Below, one piece after another: positions 3,580 through 48,650 of a stretch of 64,000 nucleotides of DNA. The position numbers and the translations under genes were made by a program. A model generated the notes under the pieces. It worked only from the letters and a program-made list of their open reading frames with translations. It was not told where the DNA came from and did no database searches. Location: assembly GCF_023371205.1 (NCBI RefSeq), contig NZ_JAMCCO010000002.1, positions 187,501 to 251,500 on the forward strand. The letters are read 5' to 3'. Origin of the DNA: Parvivirga hydrogeniphila (GTDB lineage: Bacteria; Actinomycetota; Coriobacteriia; Anaerosomatales; Anaerosomataceae). Position 1 is the first letter of the stretch, and the number at the start of each line of letters is the position of its first letter.

Positions 3580-5985
3580 TCACGAGACACGCCGGAAGTA
3601 GTGCCCCGTGGTAGACGGTTCGTACAGCGTCGTCTCGCGCGCGTCCGCACCGCCGTCGATCGCTGCGCGCAGCGTGGCGATAAGCCGGCGGACCTCCTCC
3701 GGCGGCTCGACGGACGCGTCCAGGCGGACTGCCGCCACGCCGCTTTCCACCACCTCGGCGAGCACGCGCGCGAGATCGAGCGGCACCGCGTTGTAGATGT
3801 GCGAGCGGCCTGCCGCGTCGACGACGATCGGCATCTCGAATCCCTTGCGGTCGCGAAGCGCGGCTCGCCTGCTGCGCGTCGGACACGCCTCGCACGACGG
3901 AGAGCAACGGCCTGCCGCGGCGAGCACGCAGTGCTCGGCGACCATGAGCTCCAGGCGCCCCGCGAGAAGCACGCCTGCGGGAACGGGCGACCTCGTCACG
4001 ACGCTGCGCACGAGCGCGCCCGGCAGCTCCGGAGACAGCCACACCCGGTGCGCGCCGAGATCGGCGAGCGTCGCGGCCGCCCACGGGTTCATCGCATTGA
4101 GCGGCCAGTCAGCTTCGGTCTGCGCTCCGGCGCGCACGAGGACGTCGAGCACCCCGAGCGTCCCAGCGAGCGCTCGGGCCGGCACGCCAGCGCGAAGCCA
4201 CTCGGCGACATCGCCCTGCGGCGTCACGCGCGGGAACGCGGGCCACACCCCGCGAGGAGCGGCGAGCAGGTCCTGCGGGCGGACGACGCGCATGAACACC
4301 GCGTCCGCTCCGCCGCGAAGCGCCGCCTCGGCCTGCTCCGGCGTCCACACGACCGCGACGAGCTCAGGAGTAGCGGGCGCGGGCGCTCGTGCCGGAAGGT
4401 CAGGCGGCGTGACGCTCGCGGGAACGAGGCGCTCCCGCCACGGACGCAGGCGCGCCTCGTCCAGAGCCTCGAGCGCCTGGCGCCGCACCTGGTGCAGCAC
4501 CGAGAACCCGATCCCGGCGTCGGGGTCGAGGTCGACCGCCCACGACCGCGGCCGGTACCCTGTCCCGCCCATCCGCCCGACGTGCTCGACGACGTCCTCC
4601 ACGCTCACGGGGCGCGTGCGTGCCGGCTCGACGACCGGCCCTTCGGCGCGGCCTTCGTGGCCTTCGGCGCGAACGACGATGCGTACCGGCTGCCCGACTT
4701 TGAGCGCGACGTCCACGTCCACCTCAGCGACCCGCACGTCGAGGGCAGAGGCCGGCTCGAACGTCCTGCGCGCAGCGGCCGCGAGCGACGCGTTCGCGAC
4801 GCGGAAGACGCGATCGCCCGGCGCGACCGGCCGTTCCACGGCCACGGTGGCGCGCTCTCCTGCTGGCGCGGCGTTCACGCGCACGCCGCGGACCTCGAGC
4901 GGACCGACCCGCTGCGCGTGCCTACCGCGCGTCGTCCAGAACTCGATCGTGTCGTCGGCGTCGAGCGAGCGCTCGAGGGCGATCGTGGCGCGCTGCCGGT
5001 CTGCAGCCACCACGCGGCCGACGGCGACGCCCCGGTTGTTCGGACGCGCGTAGGCCATCATCTCGTTGCCGGACCGCCCGTCCAGGTAGGCGTCCGTGAA
5101 CCCTCGGCTGAACGCCTCCTCGAGCATCTCGAGCTCTGATGGCAGCACAGACCAGCCCTCCGGATCCTCGGCGAAGCGGTCGAGGGCGGCCCGGTATGCC
5201 GCCGTCACCACGGCGACGTACTCCGGAGCCTTGGCGCGCCCCTCGATCTTGAGCGCCGAGACGCCAGCGCGCACGAGGTCCGGCAACCGCTCGATCGCCG
5301 CGAGGTCTTTCGGCGACAGGAGGTAGCGCCCAGGCGTCGCGACGACCGTGCCGTCGATGAGCAGGTCGTACGGCAGACGGCACGGCTGCGCGCACATGCC
5401 GCGGTTCGCAGACCGGCCCCCGATGGCCGACGACAGCAAGCACTGTCCCGAGTACGAGAAGCACAGCGCGCCATGGACGAACGTCTCGACCTCGACGCCT
5501 CCGGCACGGACGATCTCGGCGATCCGGTCGAGCGGCGTCTCGCGCGCAAGGGTCACGCGAGCGAAGCCGAGGCGCTCCAGCTGACGCACCGTCGCCGGAT
5601 CGTGCGCGTCGATCTGCGTGGAGGCGTGCAGGCGCACCTCCGGGAGCGATTCGCGGAGCGCACGGGCCGCCCCGAGGTCCTGGACGATCACGGCGTCCAC
5701 GCCCGCCGACCACGCGTCGGCCACGAGCGCGAGGAGCTCGCCCATCTCATCTGGCATCACGAGCACGTTCGCCGTGAGGTACACGCGGACGCCTCGTGCG
5801 TGCGCGAAGTCGCACGCCCGCCGCAAGGACTCCGGATCGAAGTTCTCGGCGCCACGCCGCGCGTTGAAGCGGGGAAGCCCCAGGTACACCGCGTTCGCGC
5901 CGCCATTGACAGCGGCGATGAGCGCGCGCGGACCGCCCGCTGGAGCGAGCAGCTCGGGTATCGCCGTGTCAGGGCGTGGGACCAT
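3580..5985 (-). CDS. U32 family peptidase-like protein (RlhA/YdcP type)
   Basis: About 801 residues. The N-terminal U32 domain starts ELLAPAGG and carries the family cysteine cluster in FVHGALCFSYSGQC and NRGMCAQPCR (roughly residues 175-215). The length and the extra middle domain fit the RlhA/YdcP subfamily, which in E. coli is needed for 23S rRNA cytidine hydroxylation; family knowledge makes tRNA/rRNA modification more likely than proteolysis. A second cysteine group, HCVLAAAGRCSPSCEACP, lies in the C-terminal third and could bind metal. The chosen start is ATG 5983-5985 (MVPRPD), although no clear ribosome binding site precedes it; an in-frame extension to 6078 has no family similarity. 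It is convergent with the PBP at 925-3570, ten bases away, and divergent from the PBP at 6123. Confidence 0.87.
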   Translation of the reverse strand: MVPRPDTAIPELLAPAGGPRALIAAVNGGANAVYLGLPRFNARRGAENFDPESLRRACDFAHARGVRVYLTANVLVMPDEMGELLALVADAWSAGVDAVIVQDLGAARALRESLPEVRLHASTQIDAHDPATVRQLERLGFARVTLARETPLDRIAEIVRAGGVEVETFVHGALCFSYSGQCLLSSAIGGRSANRGMCAQPCRLPYDLLIDGTVVATPGRYLLSPKDLAAIERLPDLVRAGVSALKIEGRAKAPEYVAVVTAAYRAALDRFAEDPEGWSVLPSELEMLEEAFSRGFTDAYLDGRSGNEMMAYARPNNRGVAVGRVVAADRQRATIALERSLDADDTIEFWTTRGRHAQRVGPLEVRGVRVNAAPAGERATVAVERPVAPGDRVFRVANASLAAAARRTFEPASALDVRVAEVDVDVALKVGQPVRIVVRAEGHEGRAEGPVVEPARTRPVSVEDVVEHVGRMGGTGYRPRSWAVDLDPDAGIGFSVLHQVRRQALEALDEARLRPWRERLVPASVTPPDLPARAPAPATPELVAVVWTPEQAEAALRGGADAVFMRVVRPQDLLAAPRGVWPAFPRVTPQGDVAEWLRAGVPARALAGTLGVLDVLVRAGAQTEADWPLNAMNPWAAATLADLGAHRVWLSPELPGALVRSVVTRSPVPAGVLLAGRLELMVAEHCVLAAAGRCSPSCEACPTRSRRAALRDRKGFEMPIVVDAAGRSHIYNAVPLDLARVLAEVVESGVAAVRLDASVEPPEEVRRLIATLRAAIDGGADARETTLYEPSTTGHYFRRVS

Positions 5986-40301: not shown

Positions 40302-40386
40302 TGGTGCGGGCGAGAGGGGTCGAACCTCCACGAGTCGCCTCACCGGGACCTAAACCCGGCGCGTCTGCCAGTTCCGCCACGCCCGC
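40302..40386 (-). tRNA. tRNA-Leu (anticodon UAG)
   Basis: 85 bases with encoded CCA (40302-40304). The acceptor stem GCGGGCG pairs with CGCCCGC; the anticodon stem-loop GCCGGGTTTAGGTCCCGG has UAG; a long variable arm follows and the T-loop is GGTTCGACCCC. The class II shape and anticodon fit leucine (CUA codon). Confidence 0.97.
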
Positions 40387-40412
40387 ACGCACCGGCGCAA
40401 AGCCGAGGAACC

Positions 40413-40418
40413 ACTATA
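40413..40418 (-). promoter_or_regulatory. -10 box of tRNA-Leu
   Basis: TATAGT on the minus strand, 27 bases before the tRNA 5' end, within TTGCTATAGTGG. No clear -35. The same 12 bases recur at 40716-40727. Confidence 0.5.
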
Positions 40419-40420
40419 GC

Positions 40421-40449
40421 AAAAAGGCCGGGCGGTTTCCGCGCCGACC
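40421..40449 (-). terminator. Intrinsic terminator after tRNA-Lys
   Basis: On the minus strand GGTCGGCGCGG-AAA-CCGCCCGGCC forms a 10-bp stem with one bulged C and one G-U pair, directly followed by TTTTT. It lies 11 bases beyond the tRNA-Lys CCA end. Confidence 0.85.
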
Positions 40450-40459
40450 TTGTGTGCGC

Positions 40460-40535
<76 letters not shown>

Positions 40536-40575: not shown

Positions 40576-40853
40576 GCAGGGGCGGGAGAGCTAGGCTGGC
40601 GAGGGGCTCGCGGACTGTACGCCGCCTCTTGGCATTCGGGGCATTATCTGACGATGGCACGCGGACACCCTTCACCGGTGCGCACGCAAGGCCTTCTGCC
40701 ACCACCTCCGCTGCGCCACTATAGCAAGCGCCAACAGTGTGGCTTCGACACATCGACGTTGTTGCGCTTCAGCGGAGCGCGCCTCGCTTCGGCTTCCTTG
40801 CCTGATACTGCGCGGAAGACGCGCTTCTGCTGGAAGTGCTTGTCAGACCCACC
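40576..40853. other. Non-coding stretch at the edge of the accessory region
   Basis: No convincing gene in about 280 bases. A 75-codon open frame on the minus strand has no ribosome binding site and a composition typical of chance. The one notable element is TTGCTATAGTGG (minus strand, 40716-40727), identical to the -10 region of tRNA-Leu but without a tRNA after it. Confidence 0.6.
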
Positions 40854-41150
40854 TTAGTCATCCGCGTCACCGAGCTCGAACAGACGTCGAGCGTGGAGCA
40901 CGGCCAGAATCGTGACCTGCCGCTCATCCCGGTGATACAGCACGCGATACGGATCCACCAGGACTTCACGGATCTCCGGTCGCTGCAGTTCAGGGACGAT
41001 ACGTCCGAGGTCCGGGAAACGCTCAAGGGAGCGCACCAGCTCCATCGTCTCATCAAGCCAGCGCAGCGCGGAGGCCGGCCGCTCTGCAGCGATGCAGTCG
41101 ACCGCCTCATCAAGCATCGACTGCGCCTGGCGTGTCCAGACGACTCTCAC
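40854..41150 (-). CDS. RelE/ParE-family toxin
   Basis: A 98-residue protein with the ParE/RelE plasmid-stabilisation layout: N-terminal WTRQAQSMLDEAVDCIA helix pair, FPDLGRIVPEL, the REVLVDPYRVLYH strand region and C-terminal VTILAVLHARRLF. ParE members poison gyrase and RelE members cleave mRNA; the sequence does not settle which. The GTG start overlaps the antitoxin stop by four bases (GTGA). Confidence 0.88.
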   Translation of the reverse strand: MRVVWTRQAQSMLDEAVDCIAAERPASALRWLDETMELVRSLERFPDLGRIVPELQRPEIREVLVDPYRVLYHRDERQVTILAVLHARRLFELGDADD

Positions 41151-41428
41151 CGAGCGAGCCTCGCACGCACGCGCGCCTCGACCTCGCCGTGCGGTGCAAC
41201 GTCACCTTGGAGCATCTCCTGCTCCCCGGAGCGAACGGCCCGCAGGAGTGCGATCTCGTCGAGCAGCCCCTCGTACAATTCGACATCCATCAGCACAGCA
41301 GCGCTCCGACCATGCTGTGTCAGGATCACCGGCCGCTTGGTCGCGCGCAGCTGATCAAGCACGGCAGACGTGTTCGCGCGGAACTCAGTGACCGGTCGAA
41401 CATCGGTGGACGGACGGAGTTGAGCCAT
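41147..41428 (-). CDS. Phd/YefM-family antitoxin
   Basis: A 93-residue partner of the downstream toxin. The N-terminus RPVTEFRANTSAVLDQL, then RPVILTQHGRSAAVLMDVELYEGL, is the Phd/YefM DNA-binding fold; the charged C-terminal tail would wrap the toxin. ATG 41428 follows CGGAGGTG. Like other members it probably represses its own promoter together with the toxin; an inverted repeat lies just upstream. Confidence 0.9.
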   Translation of the reverse strand: MAQLRPSTDVRPVTEFRANTSAVLDQLRATKRPVILTQHGRSAAVLMDVELYEGLLDEIALLRAVRSGEQEMLQGDVAPHGEVEARVRARLAR

Positions 41429-41439
41429 AGGACACCTCC

Positions 41440-41474
41440 GATACGATACGTTACTACGTACAGTCTACCGTATC
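41440..41474 (-). promoter_or_regulatory. Probable operator/promoter of the toxin-antitoxin pair
   Basis: GATACG repeats at 41440-41450 are mirrored by CGTATC at 41469-41474, giving an inverted repeat around ACGTAGTAACGT. The stretch is clearly AT-richer than its surroundings and lies immediately upstream of the antitoxin ribosome binding site. Assignment is by position and symmetry. Confidence 0.5.
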
Positions 41475-41559
41475 CTTAACGGGACTCAAACCGCCCGGCA
41501 TGGTTGGGTCTTAGGGTTATGGCCGTTCCGCCGACAACGATCATTCAGCTCGGATTACC

Positions 41560-42015
41560 AGGTACGGGTTCATGCTCACGGGGTCGGAAAGCTCGCCGGG
41601 CCAGATGTCGCGCGTCAGGAACCGCGCGAGCGCAGGCGCGTAATAGCGGTTCCAGCACCAAGAGAGGCCGGCCGGGGCGTCGCAGCGGCAGCTCGCGTGG
41701 CGGCAGGGGCCGGGCAGGGGCTCGTGCGCAGGAAGCGGGGCGCCCCACGGGTCGGAGGTATGCGCGTTGACGACAGCGCCGGAGGAGCCGGCAAGCGCCA
41801 CCACGTCGCCCCGGGCGTCCAGGCGGTAGAAGTGCGTGTCGCCTCCCCTCCTCATCGAAAAGAGCCTGCCAGACGCATCGCAGGCGTACGAGGCGAGGAT
41901 CGCGCCTGATGAGGCGGTCTCGGCGATCACGCGCGCTGAGCCCGTCGTAGCGGCAGCAGGCGGTCGCGGTGCCTTCTGTGGCCGAGACCCTGCGGTTGAA
42001 GGCGTCGTAGGCGTG
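41560..42015 (-). pseudogene. Decayed RHS tip (orphan core fragment)
   Basis: Collinear with 43238-43697, the end of the RHS core of the intact gene. Readable pieces include AYDAFNRRVSATEGTAT in one frame, then RVIAETASSGAILASYA and WCWNRYYAPALARFLTRDI in another. A two-base deletion near 41931-41940 (GCGCGCGC shortened) causes the frameshift between LSAR and VIAE. There is no start, no upstream RHS core and no recognisable C-terminal domain after LNPYL (here MNPYLVIRAE then stop). Conserved tyrosines are replaced by Cys or His (YRYASYRYD reads CRHASCRCD). Most differences from the intact copy are A/T to G/C. Confidence 0.9.
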
Positions 42016-42260
42016 GAGCCCCGATTGTTGGTCGCACCAACCGTATTGCTCGCGGTTACGAAAGCGCCGCTTCCGAGGAGGTCGTCGGCGCTCGAAAGCC
42101 ACCCGCTTCGGGTTGTAGCAGGAAGATTGAGCACCGGCCCCTCCACGGGTCGCCGACCCCGGGCCGATGCCCCTACGTTCAAGCGAAGACGCAGGCCTGG
42201 CCTGCGGGTCTGTCACTCGCAGGGAGCGATCCGGCACGGACCAGGTCTTCAGTGGATGGG

Positions 42261-42872
42261 CTATTCAATTCCTTCGATACGCGCCAAGGACATCTCCAGT
42301 TCCCTGATGACGGCGTCGTCATAGGCTTCGTTCTTAGCAACCGCCATGGCGAGCGAGTACCAACCGCGAGCCAAGGCCAGATCACCGGTGGAATAGGCAA
42401 TCCAGCCGAGATCCGAGTACATCTCGACACGTCGATCCTGCACGATGCCCTTTGAAGTCATTCGCAAACGAAGCGGGGCGTTCACCAAGACCAGACCTTC
42501 TAGGTCGGCGGATTCGAGAGCACGCTCATAGCAGTCGACTGCTGCAGCATAGTCGCCCTTGTCCATATGCGCCCTGCCCGCCAGGTAATCCCAGTTCCCG
42601 CTCAGGTACAGGCCAGCCAGAATCACGCTGAGGATGCCGATTGCGCAACCAATAAGTCCGGCAACCCGAAGCGACCGCTGACTTGACACCAAGGCCAGAT
42701 GCAACGCAGCGGCCACGTTCGCCGCGCTGGCAAGGAGAATCGCTCCGAGGAGTACCCGATGATCAACGCATGCCCATGCAGCCCCCAATAATGCAACATT
42801 GATTCCAATCAGCGTCGCCAGTACTCCTCTTGCTGTGGGCGGTTTGCTGATTTTGTTGCTCCCATCCGTCAA
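42261..42872 (-). CDS. Membrane protein with TPR-like C-terminus; possible RHS partner
   Basis: About 203 residues from TTG 42870-42872, seven bases after the RHS stop; the start is uncertain because no strong ribosome binding site is visible. Three or four hydrophobic segments (GVLATLIGINVALLGAAWAC; VLLGAILLASAANVAAAL; VAGLIGCAIGILSVILAGLY) are followed by a soluble part with TPR-like helices, GDYAAAVDCYERALES and STGDLALARGWYSLAMAVA. The family is not recognised. Base composition is lower in GC than the flanking housekeeping genes. Its place directly after an RHS gene is where an immunity gene usually stands; that role is a guess. Confidence 0.65.
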   Translation of the reverse strand: MTDGSNKISKPPTARGVLATLIGINVALLGAAWACVDHRVLLGAILLASAANVAAALHLALVSSQRSLRVAGLIGCAIGILSVILAGLYLSGNWDYLAGRAHMDKGDYAAAVDCYERALESADLEGLVLVNAPLRLRMTSKGIVQDRRVEMYSDLGWIAYSTGDLALARGWYSLAMAVAKNEAYDDAVIRELEMSLARIEGIE

Positions 42873-42879
42873 GCTCGGC

Positions 42880-45800
42880 TCACTTTCGCAGTCCTGGAAT
42901 CTCTTTGCCCGACAAGGTCTCGCCCAGAATCTGGTACGTGGATTCCTCGATTGTCGTTGCCCTGTACGTCGCATCGTCGACGTCTTGAACCTCCTGGATG
43001 AACAGCTGTCTGCATTTCTCGTTCGCGGCGTCTTCTGCCTCCGGGGTGCCCGCAGTTCGTGCCGCGTCTCGAGCTTCGTTGGCCGCAGGCACTCTTACAG
43101 AGGCACCTCCTGTAACATACGCGATCAGTAAGACCACCGGTATGCATGCAGCACCCACCGCGACAATGCCGAGGACGGCGACTGCTGGATTCATCCCGCT
43201 CGGATCGACGTTGTTCACCGGGTCAGCGCCGCAGTACAGGTACGGGTTGAGGGTCACGGGGTCGGGAAGCTCGCCGGGGTAGATGTCGCGCGTCAGGAAC
43301 CGCGCGAGCTCAGGCGCGTAATAGCGGTTCCAGCACCAATAGAGGCCGGTCGCGGCATCGTAGCGGTAGCTCGCGTAGCGGTAGGGGTTGGGTACGGACT
43401 CGTGCGCAGGAAGCGGATTCCCCCACGGGTCGTAGGAGTACGTGTTGACGATAGCGCCGGAGGAGTCGGTAAGCGCCACCACGTCGCCCCGGGCGTTCAG
43501 GCGGTAGAAGTACGTGTCGCCTCCCCTCGTCATCGCAAAGAGCCTACCAGACGCATCGTAGGCGTACGAGGCGAGGATCGCGCCTTCAGCGTCGGTCTCG
43601 GCGATCACGCGCGCGCTTAGCCCGTCGTAGTGGTAGTAGACGGTCGCGGTGCCTTCTGTGGCGGAGACCCTGCGGTTGAAGGCGTCGTAGGCGTAGGAGA
43701 CGATGGTGGTTCCGGTGGATGCATCGACGACGGCGGTCAGGCGCCCTGCGGCGTCGTAGGAGAAGCGGCGCTTGCCGTCGCAGGTGAGGTTGCCTGCGGC
43801 GTCATAGGTGAAGCCGGGGTTCGTGATGCGGCATGCGGCGTCCACGTCGAAGCTCGCCGTCGTGCTGCCGTCGACCGAGACGGAGACGAGGTTGGAGGCG
43901 GCATCGTAGGAGTACGTCGTCACCGCACCTCCGGGCGCGGTCCAGGAGACGAGCCGGCCTGCGGCGTCGAAGGCGTAGGCGCCTGCCGCATCGGACGTGA
44001 CCTTGCCTGCCGCGTCCCGCGCGTAGGCCTCGGCGATCGCGCCAGAGGCCGTGGTCGTCACGATGCTCGCGAGGCGGCCTGCGGCGTCGTAGGCGTAGGC
44101 GGTCTCGACGCCGTTCGGGAGGCTCGAGCCGACAAGCGCGCCTGCGGCGTCATAGGCGAAGGTCGCGGCGCCAAAGCCGGAAAGCGCAAGGGAGGTGAGG
44201 CGGCCTGCTGCGTCGTAGGCGTAGGTGATCGCGGGGGCGCCGTCCGAGCCGAGCGCAGTGACGCGCCCGGCCGCATCGTAGGCGTACGTGGTCTCGAAGC
44301 TCCGCTCGCCGGAGGTGTCGGCTGCCCTCGTGAGCCACCCCACCGGGTTGTAGGAGAAGGACAGCGTGCGGCCGGCTGCGTCGGTCACGGAGGAGAGCCG
44401 GTGCGCGGGCGTGTAGGAGAAGCTGTACGACTCGCCTGTGGAGTGCTCGGCGCGCGCGAGCAGGCCGTCTGGAGTGTAGGTGCGGGCGACAGAGGTCCCG
44501 TTCGGCTGCTCGGAGCGGAGCAGGTTGCCTGCGGCGTCGTAGGTGAAGCGCCACGTGTTGCCGAGCGAGTCGCGGGTCTCGGCAAGCAGGTCGTTCGCCG
44601 AGTACGTGTAGCGGGTGGTGGCGCCTTTGGGGTCGGTGACCGAGGCGAGGTTGTAGTTGGGGTCGTAGGTGTAAGTCCAGGTGTTCGACAGCGGGTCAGT
44701 CACGCCCGAGAGCTTGTCCATCACGTCGTAGCTGAACCTCGTGGTGTTCCCGCGCGAGTCGGTGATAGAGGTGCGGTTGCCGTTCGCATCGTACGCGAAA
44801 CGCGTTACCCCGCCCGCCGGGTCGGTGGCTGTGAGCACCCGGCCCGCGGCGTCGTAGGTGAAGCGTGCTACGCGCCCCATGGGGTCGGTGGTGGAGAGAA
44901 GGTTGCCGGCGGCGTCGTAGGTGAACGCAGAGACCCCTCCCAGCGGATCGGTGACGCTCGTCAGCCGTCCCGCGGCGTCGTACGAGTATCGCGTGGTGGC
45001 ACCAGCAAGCGTCATCTCCGAGACGAGGCCATTCGCGAAGTGGCCGTAGACGATTTCGAAGACCGGATTCGAGACCCGCTCAAGGTAGGTCCCGGTAGAG
45101 TCGTATGTGTAGGTCGTCCGAACGCCCTCGGCGTTTTCTTCCCACCGGATGTTGTTGTTGGACAGGTCGTACGCCGCGCGCGTCGTGTGACCCGCAGCGT
45201 CGGTTGCGCTCGTGCGGTTCCCGTTGGCGTCGTAGGTGAAGGCCTTCCTGTGGCCGTTGGCGTCCGTCACGCTCTCCACGAGACCTGCGGAGTTATACGT
45301 CCGGCGCGTCGTATTGCCCGCTCCATCAGTCTCGGCAGTGAGGCGGAACTCGCTGTCGAAGGCGTGGACCTGCATGTAGCCCCGGTTGTTGGTGATCGTC
45401 GTCGCGCCTTCGGCGTACGACAGCGTGCCAGTATTGCCGTAGCCGTCGTGCTGTACCGCCACGCGGTTCTCGGCATCGTACGTGTGCGAGACGAAAGGAG
45501 TGGACGGGTGCTTGGGCGACGCGACTGCGACGATGCGGTGCTGATCGTCGTACGTGTAGCGCGTCGTGCTGCCAGCAGTGTCTGTGACGGCGAGCAGGTC
45601 GCCGGATGTCGAGTACGCGTACGTCACCTGGCGGCCGGCGTTGTCGACGACTTTGGTGAGCAGGTCGCCTGTGTAGGTGAAGTTCACGAACCGCCCGCCT
45701 GCACCTTCGATGCGCGTGACCGCGCCAAGAGAGTTGCGCGTGTAGGTGACCGTATTTCCATAGCGGTCCGTCACGCTTAGCAGAGAGCCGTTCGGCGCGT

Positions 45801-48033
45801 ACGTGTTGACGGTGCCATCGAGGTACGTCAGCGTCCAGCCGCCGCCTGAGCGCGCTGCGAGCTTCTCGAGCGTCCCCTGTGGGGGGACGTAGCCGTCTGC
45901 GCCGTCCGGGGAGAAAGTCTTGCGCGCGCCTCCGGGATACACCACGAGCGCTGACCCATCATCTTGCTGCTGCACGTACGACTCGCTGTCGAGCATCCAC
46001 CCATATCCGAGCACGGTCCGCAACTGGGCATCTTGGTGGTTGTACGTCCGGCCGACAATGATGGCGGGACCCACACCGGGCAACGTGAGGTCCACGGCCT
46101 GGTAGTAGAAGTTGCCCGTGGAGGTGTTCACCGGCTCGCCCCAGCGGCCGCACGGAGTCCTCCCACCCAGTACTTGAGCGCTCTTCGGTGTCGCGAAAGG
46201 GCTCCAAAGCCATGGTTCGCATTGGGCATACGTGAATTCTACGTCCCGGGGGCCAGAAACCCGACCCCAATAGTTGCGCAGAGCGTCGATGGGGCTGCCG
46301 GCAGGGGCGACGAGGTTGACGACGCCGGAAGCCCCATTGCCATAAATGTCGTTGTAGTTGATGCGAGCGGTAACGCCGGGACCGCTAACGTAGATGCCTG
46401 CGTAGCCGTTGCGGAGTATGAAGTTGCGCTTCAGAGACGGTCCGCCGCTGGTGATGTGCACACCATAGTACCTGTTGTTCGACAGCGCCGAGTCCGTGAC
46501 CGATGGCGATCCGGACTGCACCTCGATGCCGGTGTCGCAGCCGCGGATCGCAAGGCGCGACATCGCCGGGGAGGCGGCGGCGATCCGCATCCCGCTGTTG
46601 CCGCAGTCGCGGATCGTCAGGTCGTGGATGTCTGGAGCGGCCCCGTCTTCGATGGGCATGACGGTGTAGCGGTTGTACGCGTCGAAGACCCACTGCCAGC
46701 CGGCGTAGCGGATCTCGGCGTTCGCAAGGACGCTTCCGCTCGACGCGGCCCCGGTGAAGCCGACGCCGCCCCAGTCCTTCGGCGCAGGCGTGGCGACCGC
46801 GTTGTCGGTGTCGCCGCCCACCGAGTCGTCTTTGATGGACGTGAAGACGATGGGGGCGTCGGCCGTGCCGCGGGCATCGAGCGTCCCGAGGACTTTGATG
46901 CCTGATGTTGATGACGTATAGCCGTTGGTGGAGGGCGCAAACTTGACTACAGTCCCAGCCACGATCGCCAACCGGCGACCCTCTGGAACAATTACCGTCT
47001 GATCTACGACCCATACGGCATTGGGAGTCCAGGTCGCGTCGGCAGACAGAATCCCGCTGACACGGACGACCCTGGGCGGCAGACTGCCAGTCACATCGAA
47101 TGCGTCCACGTTGATCGCCGTGGACGACGCTTTCCTGTTCTTCGTCCCGGTCCACGAGATTGTCAGCGTGTGTCTGCCAAGCGGAAGGTCCGGTGTGCTG
47201 TAGACGGCTTGCTGATACGCCGGGGAGCTAGCATAGAGGTCGACGGGCACCGGAGAGGTTCCGTCGAGAGAGACATTCATGATGCCGTTGGCAGGACCTC
47301 GGGCGGCCAGCACCTGCGCCTTCGTGCCATCGAACGTCAGCGTGCACGAACCGGTCGCGTTCGTCATCCGGTATGATCCACCAGACGCCGCTGCATCGAC
47401 CACGTCCGTCCATGCTCCAGAGAAAGCGATGCGCGCGTCATTCGATTCGTAGCGAGCGGGGGTTGGCGCCTGTGCCAGCGTGCCGGTGACGTCGAGCGCG
47501 TCTATGTTGATCGTCGTTCCGGTGGCCTTCTTGTTCTTGAGACCGGTCCACGCAATCACCACCGTGTGAGTGCCCTCGGCGAGCACGGGCGACGTGTAGA
47601 CCGCCTGCTGATAGCTCGCGGATGCCGAGTACAGGTCCACGTTGACCGGACTGCCTCCGTCGATCGCGACGGTCATGATGCCGTAGGCCGGCCCCTTCGA
47701 CGCAACAACCACCACGGCGGTGCCCTGGAACACAGCCAGAGCAGAACCGGCCGCGTTCGTGGTGCGGACCGACCCCCCGGATGCAGAAGCGTCGGCAACA
47801 TCGGTCCAGGTGCCGGCATAGGCGATGAGCGGGTCGGATGATTCATATCTGGTAGTTGACTCTGCAGCAACCGCCTCGCTCGCCCAGGCTCCGCGCGGAC
47901 CCTTCGTGCTGAAAACTCCGCGCGTCGCTGCAACAAGCCGAAGCGGCGGCGTGACTGCCATGACTGCTGCGAGCGTCGTGCACAAGACGAGTCGCGAGAT
48001 GGCCCGAGACGAAGCCCTGCCGGATACGCTCAT
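42880..48033 (-). CDS. Secreted RHS/YD-repeat protein with beta-helix N-terminus
   Basis: 1717 residues from ATG 48031-48033 after GGGGGAGGGA. Order: Sec signal (about 1-36); two tandem homologous beta-sandwich-like modules (about 60-190 and 190-325) sharing YES-D--I---G-WTDV and YQQAVY, with IN-DA-DVTG; a right-handed beta-helix region (about 330-640, with DWGGVGFTG and repeated N-GI-V turns); a DUF6531-like RHS start (GEPVNTSTGNFYYQ, about 650); many YD repeats (YDAAGRL/YDAAGNL); and the RHS core end ARGDVVALTDSSG through YDAATGLYWCWNRYYAP to NPYLYCGADP (about 1500-1605). After NVDPSG a unique tail of about 105 residues has a hydrophobic segment (VLGIVAVGAACIPVVLLIAYV) and a soluble end without a known motif. 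Likely a cell-surface or secreted polymorphic protein. Confidence 0.92.
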   Translation of the reverse strand: MSVSGRASSRAISRLVLCTTLAAVMAVTPPLRLVAATRGVFSTKGPRGAWASEAVAAESTTRYESSDPLIAYAGTWTDVADASASGGSVRTTNAAGSALAVFQGTAVVVVASKGPAYGIMTVAIDGGSPVNVDLYSASASYQQAVYTSPVLAEGTHTVVIAWTGLKNKKATGTTINIDALDVTGTLAQAPTPARYESNDARIAFSGAWTDVVDAAASGGSYRMTNATGSCTLTFDGTKAQVLAARGPANGIMNVSLDGTSPVPVDLYASSPAYQQAVYSTPDLPLGRHTLTISWTGTKNRKASSTAINVDAFDVTGSLPPRVVRVSGILSADATWTPNAVWVVDQTVIVPEGRRLAIVAGTVVKFAPSTNGYTSSTSGIKVLGTLDARGTADAPIVFTSIKDDSVGGDTDNAVATPAPKDWGGVGFTGAASSGSVLANAEIRYAGWQWVFDAYNRYTVMPIEDGAAPDIHDLTIRDCGNSGMRIAAASPAMSRLAIRGCDTGIEVQSGSPSVTDSALSNNRYYGVHITSGGPSLKRNFILRNGYAGIYVSGPGVTARINYNDIYGNGASGVVNLVAPAGSPIDALRNYWGRVSGPRDVEFTYAQCEPWLWSPFATPKSAQVLGGRTPCGRWGEPVNTSTGNFYYQAVDLTLPGVGPAIIVGRTYNHQDAQLRTVLGYGWMLDSESYVQQQDDGSALVVYPGGARKTFSPDGADGYVPPQGTLEKLAARSGGGWTLTYLDGTVNTYAPNGSLLSVTDRYGNTVTYTRNSLGAVTRIEGAGGRFVNFTYTGDLLTKVVDNAGRQVTYAYSTSGDLLAVTDTAGSTTRYTYDDQHRIVAVASPKHPSTPFVSHTYDAENRVAVQHDGYGNTGTLSYAEGATTITNNRGYMQVHAFDSEFRLTAETDGAGNTTRRTYNSAGLVESVTDANGHRKAFTYDANGNRTSATDAAGHTTRAAYDLSNNNIRWEENAEGVRTTYTYDSTGTYLERVSNPVFEIVYGHFANGLVSEMTLAGATTRYSYDAAGRLTSVTDPLGGVSAFTYDAAGNLLSTTDPMGRVARFTYDAAGRVLTATDPAGGVTRFAYDANGNRTSITDSRGNTTRFSYDVMDKLSGVTDPLSNTWTYTYDPNYNLASVTDPKGATTRYTYSANDLLAETRDSLGNTWRFTYDAAGNLLRSEQPNGTSVARTYTPDGLLARAEHSTGESYSFSYTPAHRLSSVTDAAGRTLSFSYNPVGWLTRAADTSGERSFETTYAYDAAGRVTALGSDGAPAITYAYDAAGRLTSLALSGFGAATFAYDAAGALVGSSLPNGVETAYAYDAAGRLASIVTTTASGAIAEAYARDAAGKVTSDAAGAYAFDAAGRLVSWTAPGGAVTTYSYDAASNLVSVSVDGSTTASFDVDAACRITNPGFTYDAAGNLTCDGKRRFSYDAAGRLTAVVDASTGTTIVSYAYDAFNRRVSATEGTATVYYHYDGLSARVIAETDAEGAILASYAYDASGRLFAMTRGGDTYFYRLNARGDVVALTDSSGAIVNTYSYDPWGNPLPAHESVPNPYRYASYRYDAATGLYWCWNRYYAPELARFLTRDIYPGELPDPVTLNPYLYCGADPVNNVDPSGMNPAVAVLGIVAVGAACIPVVLLIAYVTGGASVRVPAANEARDAARTAGTPEAEDAANEKCRQLFIQEVQDVDDATYRATTIEESTYQILGETLSGKEIPGLRK

Positions 48034-48091
48034 CGATTCCCTCCCCCTGTTTAGGACGGCCCCCCCGCACCGACGCCAGACCGTCTAGCGC

Positions 48092-48124
48092 ACTTGTAGC
48101 ACAGCGGCTCGCCCTTCTACAAGT
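48092..48124. repeat. Perfect inverted repeat upstream of the RHS gene
   Basis: ACTTGTAG (48092-48099) and CTACAAGT (48117-48124) are exact inverted copies separated by 17 bases, 59 bases upstream of the RHS start. No T-run follows on the minus strand. The spacing would suit a two-site operator. Confidence 0.75.
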
Positions 48125-48433
48125 TTCGGCGGGAAAGTCTGGGACGCGAATTCATCCCCGCGCATACCTGGGGCTATAGCAACAGCGCTGGCTGCTTCTT
48201 GCAGACTCGAAATGTAAGCCGGGCTTGACAATACACTGCGCCATACGCCAGTTCGCGCTCACGAGAGACGCCCTCAGCGCCTCGCCACACGCAGAGGCGT
48301 GCGCATCGAGCAGCAAGCCGCTAGGGTCTCGCACCAGCGCGCCGGGGCAAGGACCATGTTCGACGTGAGAGGAGGAATCGCGACGCCCGACTCGTCACAG
48401 AAGCCCATCGCGTTGAGAAAGACGGCCCCGCCC
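48125..48433. other. Non-coding stretch between the RHS gene and the rho operon
   Basis: About 310 bases with no supported gene. Two short minus-strand frames (60 and 71 codons) lack ribosome binding sites and recognisable domains. TTGACA at 48225-48230 (plus strand) has no -10 partner at 16-18 bases. Composition is more mixed than in the neighbouring genes. Confidence 0.6.
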
Positions 48434-48631
48434 TCACCCCTCGTCGAGGCTCCGGGCGCCACTTTCGTCGCCTGCCGCCGCGCCGTCAAGCCGCCTGAGC
48501 TCGCGCAGGATTTCCAGCCCCGGCCTCCGATCGAGCAGCGGGTACTTGCCGCCCATAGCCTTCATCCGCTCCAGCGCGCCAAGGACGCGGCGCCGGCGCG
48601 CCTCGGTCTTTCGTCTCTCGCGCGCGGTCAC
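48434..48631 (-). CDS. Small protein of unknown function following rho
   Basis: 65 residues from GTG 48629-48631, preceded by GGGGAG and starting 19 bases after the rho stop. The sequence is very basic at the N-terminus (TARERRKTEARRRRVLGALE), then MKAMGGKYPLLDRRPGLEILRELRRLDG, then an acidic end. No family is recognised; short antitoxin-like proteins can look similar. Support is the ribosome binding site, the operon position and protein-like composition only. Confidence 0.5.
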   Translation of the reverse strand: MTARERRKTEARRRRVLGALERMKAMGGKYPLLDRRPGLEILRELRRLDGAAAGDESGARSLDEG

Positions 48632-48650
48632 GGCCGCTCCCCGCACGCCC

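Follow-up and report, generated by a model that had tools for sequence, protein, structure and literature searches.

Organization of the RHS locus

On the reverse strand of the window, by which we mean the whole 64,000-nucleotide stretch of Parvivirga hydrogeniphila DNA analysed here, lie a large RHS gene, a small membrane-protein gene directly behind it and a broken copy of part of the RHS core (Table 1). The RHS gene is a large open frame, unbroken over 1717 codons, and about 18 RHS repeats were found in its product. Profile searches (RHS_repeat, 9.3e-123; TEN_YD-shell, 66.5 bits; TIGR03696 (Rhs_assc_core), 67.7 bits at a cut-off of 32.5) revealed a YD/RHS repeat shell and an Rhs-associated core. 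The core is complete, with two conserved aspartates (in RD... and DPSG), and terminates in NVDPSG (boundary sequence NPYLYCGADPVNNVDPSG), after which 104 residues follow. Both self-cleavage aspartates were matched in an alignment with RhsP (8h8a), in which the first motif reads RDIYPG, not DPxG, and a few residues are inserted. Among solved structures, RHS proteins and teneurins come closest to the RHS protein in sequence, and these comparisons indicate that the window core has self-cleaving RHS proteins among its structurally solved relatives. Copies of the paired N-terminal modules, about 30–49% identical, are present in other large proteins with frames of up to about 4000 aa in many genomes of the order.

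Table 1 Features of the RHS locus in window coordinates
Feature	Coordinates	Strand	Residues of RHS protein	Evidence
Frameshifted core remnant, without tip	41559..42018	-		88.8% identity over 463 bp to core
Candidate immunity gene, 203 aa, TTG start, three membrane segments and TPR domain	42261..42872	-		TTG, hydropathy, PF07719
RHS protein, complete frame, 1717 aa	42880..48033	-		ORF translation
Variable C-terminal tail, candidate toxin	42883..43194	-	1614–1717	No Pfam/NCBIfam/PADLOC family; low GC
Hydrophobic helix of tail	43120..43176	-		Most hydrophobic among 103 surveyed tails
RHS-associated core	43192..43434	-	1534–1614	TIGR03696, 67.7 bits; RhsP 8h8a alignment
DUF6531, opens RHS shell	45913..46140	-	632–707	PF20148, 2.1e-15
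Right-handed beta-helix region	46318..46638	-	466–572	PF13229, 1e-8
Two related carbohydrate-binding-like modules	47080..47856	-	about 60–318	First copy PF17996 (CE2_N), 1.8e-6
Sec-type signal-peptide-like N-terminus	47920..48033	-	about 1–38	By eye from translation

The tail carries a single strong hydrophobic segment (mean Kyte-Doolittle 2.8 over 19 residues), downstream of which it is net acidic (9 K/R, 14 D/E). Its C-terminal part is predicted to be helical and charged, and no enzyme-like motif or family was detected there with Pfam or NCBIfam. The tail has this one hydrophobic helix only, with neither a multi-helix hydrophobic domain nor a glycine zipper. Searches of Pfam, NCBIfam and PADLOC gave no match to a described family; resemblances to an Rz-like spanin (PHROG, 0.029), Ten1_2 (Pfam, 0.064) and SepX/GlpR (NCBIfam, 0.0034) were rejected as lying far below the cut-offs or as single-helix likenesses. 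A single-sequence structure model gave a two-helix hairpin at low confidence (pLDDT 73; other models, 52–57), which cannot decide the mechanism, and a fold search with the tail returned no match at E below 5. In 400 genomes of the class, weak matches to the tail occurred in ten other genomes; seven of these loci, when read back, showed weak alignments only, and the two best-covering matches (L217 and L221) resembled LytR-C-type wall proteins with one membrane helix, which we judged to be due to chance.

The membrane gene begins with TTG at 42872, seven bases past the RHS stop, a start with which the coordinates of an earlier note agree; an ATG in the same frame lies within the RHS gene at 42974. 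Its product contains three hydrophobic segments and a C-terminal TPR region (PF07719, 4e-8). Only generic TPR models of Pfam matched; nothing in NCBIfam or PADLOC scored above cut-off, nor did any described immunity model in the three collections, and a holin-like match (0.75) was rejected. The structure model is confident only in the TPR-like C-terminal part, and the fold search found TPR proteins only. This note, made from the sequence alone, had described a secreted RHS protein whose core boundary is followed by a unique hydrophobic tail of about 105 residues, with a small membrane protein bearing TPR-like helices seven bases behind it; our analysis confirmed this description. The note's view that both products fall outside described families also holds, beyond the generic TPR motif.

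A related membrane gene behind another RHS gene

The sole homologue of the membrane protein that was found, P0004, is encoded in G053, a genome from another family of the order (24% identity; pairwise E 4e-7; shuffle z-score 13.5), and its gene directly follows an RHS gene, whose end it overlaps. Each of the two proteins contains three membrane segments; positive charges precede the first segment and also lie between segments two and three, a pattern that probably places the C-terminal TPR domain outside in both. Across the 400 genomes of the class, the membrane gene was present in two, those of the window and G053, each time behind an RHS gene, and it was not found away from an RHS gene. A sample of 397 genomes of the phylum added two further matches covering the TPR stretch only, and no relatives were detected in viral contigs, plasmids or named genomes. 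An occurrence of the membrane gene independent of RHS genes, which the note had held would speak against its reading, was not encountered in the class or in the phylum sample. Matches in G012 and G014 proved to be ordinary TPR proteins beside cytochrome-like genes, without an RHS locus.

The related membrane genes of the window and G053 follow tails that share no recognisable homology; the alignment of the two tails is at chance level (438 of 1000 shuffles), and homology was rejected. The G053 tail, at 110 aa, is near the window tail in size and hydropathy. No other tail among the 103 is as hydrophobic as these two, and in both the helix begins no more than 5 residues past the boundary. The chance of picking exactly these two is about 1 in 5,000 by a test picked post hoc.

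Cassette boundary and island

The GC contents of the tail (58.7%) and the membrane gene (57.4%) are lower than those of the core (66.6%) and the window (68.3%), and the drop common to the two sets in at the core boundary. The tail was likewise lower in GC than its own core in 95 of 101 loci surveyed in the order. Behind the membrane gene, the core remnant of about 460 bp matches nucleotides 4335–4797 of the RHS gene (core residues about 1445–1599), and its frame is disrupted by indels. The note had taken it for a displaced, decayed second tip with core homology. The core homology was borne out; there is no tip, as the similarity ends at NPYL, upstream of the DPSG boundary.

The truncated end of the remnant, NPYLVIRAE, recurs as NPYLVIRAG at the same chromosomal place in a same-genus MAG deposited as Slackia sp. 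(G002; DYEA01000009.1), where the core remnant alone remains beside rho, in a 204-aa open frame. Two other same-genus genomes (G001 and G003) lack the stretch from about 40580 to 48645. At its left edge this stretch comes within about 45 bases of a tRNA-Lys gene (40460–40535), and the RHS island is thus an accessory element located next to a tRNA. Adjoining this edge are tRNA-Leu(tag) and tRNA-Lys(ctt), at 40302–40535 on the reverse strand. A second toxin-antitoxin type also adjoins the island: read by eye, two short, overlapping reverse-strand genes at 40854–41428 resemble a RelE/ParE-type toxin (40854–41150) and a Phd/YefM-type antitoxin (41147–41428). Between the RHS remnant and the Phd/YefM-type gene, G002 (G002:C8:34000-46000) has about 785 extra bp that resemble, again by eye, an AbrB/VapB-type antitoxin and a PIN-domain toxin.

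RHS tails and next genes in the order

We searched 69 genomes (the window genome and 68 relatives from its order) for the Rhs core and found it in 41. For each core, the best-scoring ORF starting −70 to +200 bases from the tail stop was taken as the next gene, and 104 tails and 98 next ORFs were compared all against all. The roughly 100 tails are diverse behind the conserved core and differ between genomes of the order, the tail variability that the note had proposed to check among relatives. Homology was found for 91 of about 5,350 tail pairs, many over the first residues only, and for 15 pairs of next genes, in 12 of which the tails were also homologous. Two of the three exceptions are joined via G004:C15, whose tail matches both partners, and the third is the window/G053 pair. 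As far as sequence comparison can tell, this covariation is the behaviour of cognate toxin/immunity pairs. The layout by which RHS loci swap toxin and immunity genes, as the note had proposed for the window, is supported by the varying tails and co-varying next genes; the displaced tip drops out of it. One tail identity of 100% in an alignment was set aside as an effect of few overlapping columns. In G001 we observed an array of RHS core ends with differing tails and a small gene behind each (G001:C1:766014-784881), and a comparable array, its cassettes nearly identical, is partly present on another contig of the window's own genome (G000:C4:1-9291).

We counted a hydrophobic (membrane or export) segment where the mean hydropathy over 19 residues was 1.6 or more. 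Of the 92 distinct next genes in the order, 83 encode such a segment: 55 have two or more, and 26 have a single N-terminal one, with a lipobox-like motif in 8 of the 26. Among the small predicted genes of the window the count was 2 of 24. For RHS cores sampled elsewhere in the phylum it was 23 of 36, a weaker bias (p 0.001) in a comparison where next-gene calling is less reliable in lower-GC genomes. Both the calling of next genes and the hydropathy-based membrane prediction are simple methods. Membrane-located immunity appears to be the rule in this order.

Where a tail could be recognised through Pfam, it was mostly a hydrolase of wall or lipid (Phage_lysozyme2, SLT, CHAP, NlpC/P60, ELLD, YkuD and Zn_dep_PLPC) or a known toxin domain (Ntox44, DUF6973 and Tox-REase-7); peptidases also occurred. 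This suggests that the RHS proteins of the order mostly attack the envelope from outside, and the hydrolase tips together with the membrane or exported next genes fit secreted proteins that can act without entering a target cell. The link of hydrophobic tails with polytopic next genes did not go beyond a trend (p 0.08). The tails of G031, G032 and G067 start with a hydrophobic helix, continue into a charged or cationic C-terminal region and have soluble next genes; here the helix is perhaps an entry helix on a cytosolic toxin. Another RHS core, in G051:C84 (L126), has the same NNVDPSG end. Its 78-aa tail, with two hydrophobic stretches and a terminus that is strongly cationic, resembles a membrane anchor, and no next gene was found behind it.

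A candidate membrane-acting tip and its immunity protein

We lean, with slightly better than even confidence, towards reading the locus as a secreted RHS polymorphic toxin and its cognate immunity gene, with a probably membrane-acting tip and membrane-embedded immunity. The RHS shell would be exported via its Sec-type signal, would be expected to self-cleave behind DPSG like other RHS proteins, and would carry the 104-aa tip. Opening with a very hydrophobic helix, the tip would probably insert into the cytoplasmic membrane of a neighbouring cell and harm it through membrane disruption. The 203-aa protein would serve as the immunity protein, guarding the producer and its kin; its three membrane helices would hold out the TPR domain, probably at the outer face and in a position to meet and neutralise the incoming tip. 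The tail and the membrane gene would form one exchangeable cassette, and the core remnant behind them would be the leftover of an earlier recombination. In favour of this reading we count the complete core, the GC drop at its boundary, the covariation of tails and next genes, the membrane bias of the next genes, the nature of the recognisable tails, and the G053 homologue with its equally placed gene and hydrophobic tail. Weighing against it are the absence of recognisable homology between the tails of the window and G053, the low-confidence tail model, the missing glycine zipper, the helix-first tails with soluble next genes, the mere trend between hydrophobic tails and polytopic next genes, and the simplicity of the methods.

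The main rival also sees a toxin/immunity pair, in which the helix is used only for entry: activity would reside in the charged 75 residues at the C-terminus, working at or inside the cytoplasmic face of the target membrane, and the TPR domain would sit on the inner face. The helix may serve entry instead because the three other helix-first tails, which also run into charged C-termini, have soluble next genes, and the C-terminal part of the window tail is predicted to be helical and charged as well. That part, however, matches no enzyme-like motif or family, and the next gene here encodes a three-segment membrane protein in which the charge pattern, as in its homologue, puts the TPR domain outside; we consider this arrangement rather unlikely. 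A non-toxin role strikes us as less probable again. The tail would then keep the RHS protein anchored to the surface of the cell that makes it, and the membrane protein would help its assembly, as a Sec-exported chain with such a hydrophobic helix could halt in the producer's membrane and the RHS gene in G051:C84 ends in an anchor-like helix and a strongly cationic tail. Past its helix, though, the window tail is net acidic, unlike a stop-transfer anchor, and across the order the tails show variation, a GC content unlike that of the core and covariation with their next genes, as toxins do and as is not required of anchors.

Of low probability too, and the lowest that we assign, is that the locus is decaying or orphaned and that the tail and the membrane gene are remnants without present function. 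The adjoining frameshifted core copy, the same-genus genome that retains a core remnant only, the two without the island and a window tail shorter than most in the survey would all agree with decay. Yet no break interrupts the RHS frame, the frames of the tail and the membrane gene are open, and a second member of the membrane-protein family is present elsewhere in the order, in another bacterial family, next to a tail alike in size and hydropathy.

Significance

Our searches indicate that the window adds new parts to a known kind of system, the RHS toxin/immunity-type locus: its tail and its candidate immunity family are both new. More tentatively, and short of even confidence, we propose that a very small membrane-active RHS tip, with its hydrophobic helix right after the cleavage site, and immunity through three membrane helices bearing an outer-face TPR domain may both be new, and that the RHS proteins of the order may chiefly attack the envelope and be countered by membrane-located immunity. 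The order is little studied, nearly every RHS tip in it has a membrane or exported gene directly behind, and none of the papers in the collection searched brings up RHS, Coriobacteriia and toxin jointly. The window pair offers a small, testable case outside known families, from a subsurface actinobacterium, and it poses the question of how a Sec-exported protein with so hydrophobic a tip spares its own membrane.

Comparison with known systems

The YD shell of the window protein is related by sequence to those of the RHS polymorphic toxins RhsP (8h8a), RhsA (7q97) and Tse5 (8cp6), with which it shares counterparts of both cleavage aspartates, a variable C-terminal tip and a small gene directly behind. 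Tse5 is an RHS pore-former, and a self-cleavage site with two aspartates has been described for it (PMC10684867). In contrast to these proteins, the window protein would leave the cell by its signal peptide and not through a type VI system, carries a beta-helix and two carbohydrate-binding-like modules ahead of the shell, and has the variant first aspartate motif; its tip is unrelated by sequence to any solved tip. Bacterial teneurin-like proteins (PMC13018210; 9ifo, 9pt5) similarly combine a YD shell related by sequence, a variable tip and an immunity gene behind, but their N-terminal architecture differs from the CE2_N-like modules and beta-helix seen here. Family searches of the window protein matched the YD-shell model alone, with no teneurin features outside that shell.

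Two further systems offer mechanistic parallels. EsxX of Staphylococcus is antibacterial and exported, its toxic end is hydrophobic, and the polytopic membrane proteins ExiCD fend it off from outside (PMC12744356). This parallel is independent of any claim of homology: EsxX is an LXG/type VII protein with a glycine zipper, a feature that the window tail lacks. The CDI ionophore toxins have polymorphic tips that dissipate the membrane potential and highly variable, membrane-located immunity proteins (PMC11630599). Their tips are five-helix bundles, with separate entry domains on CdiA, whereas the window tail consists of a single hydrophobic helix followed by a charged one.
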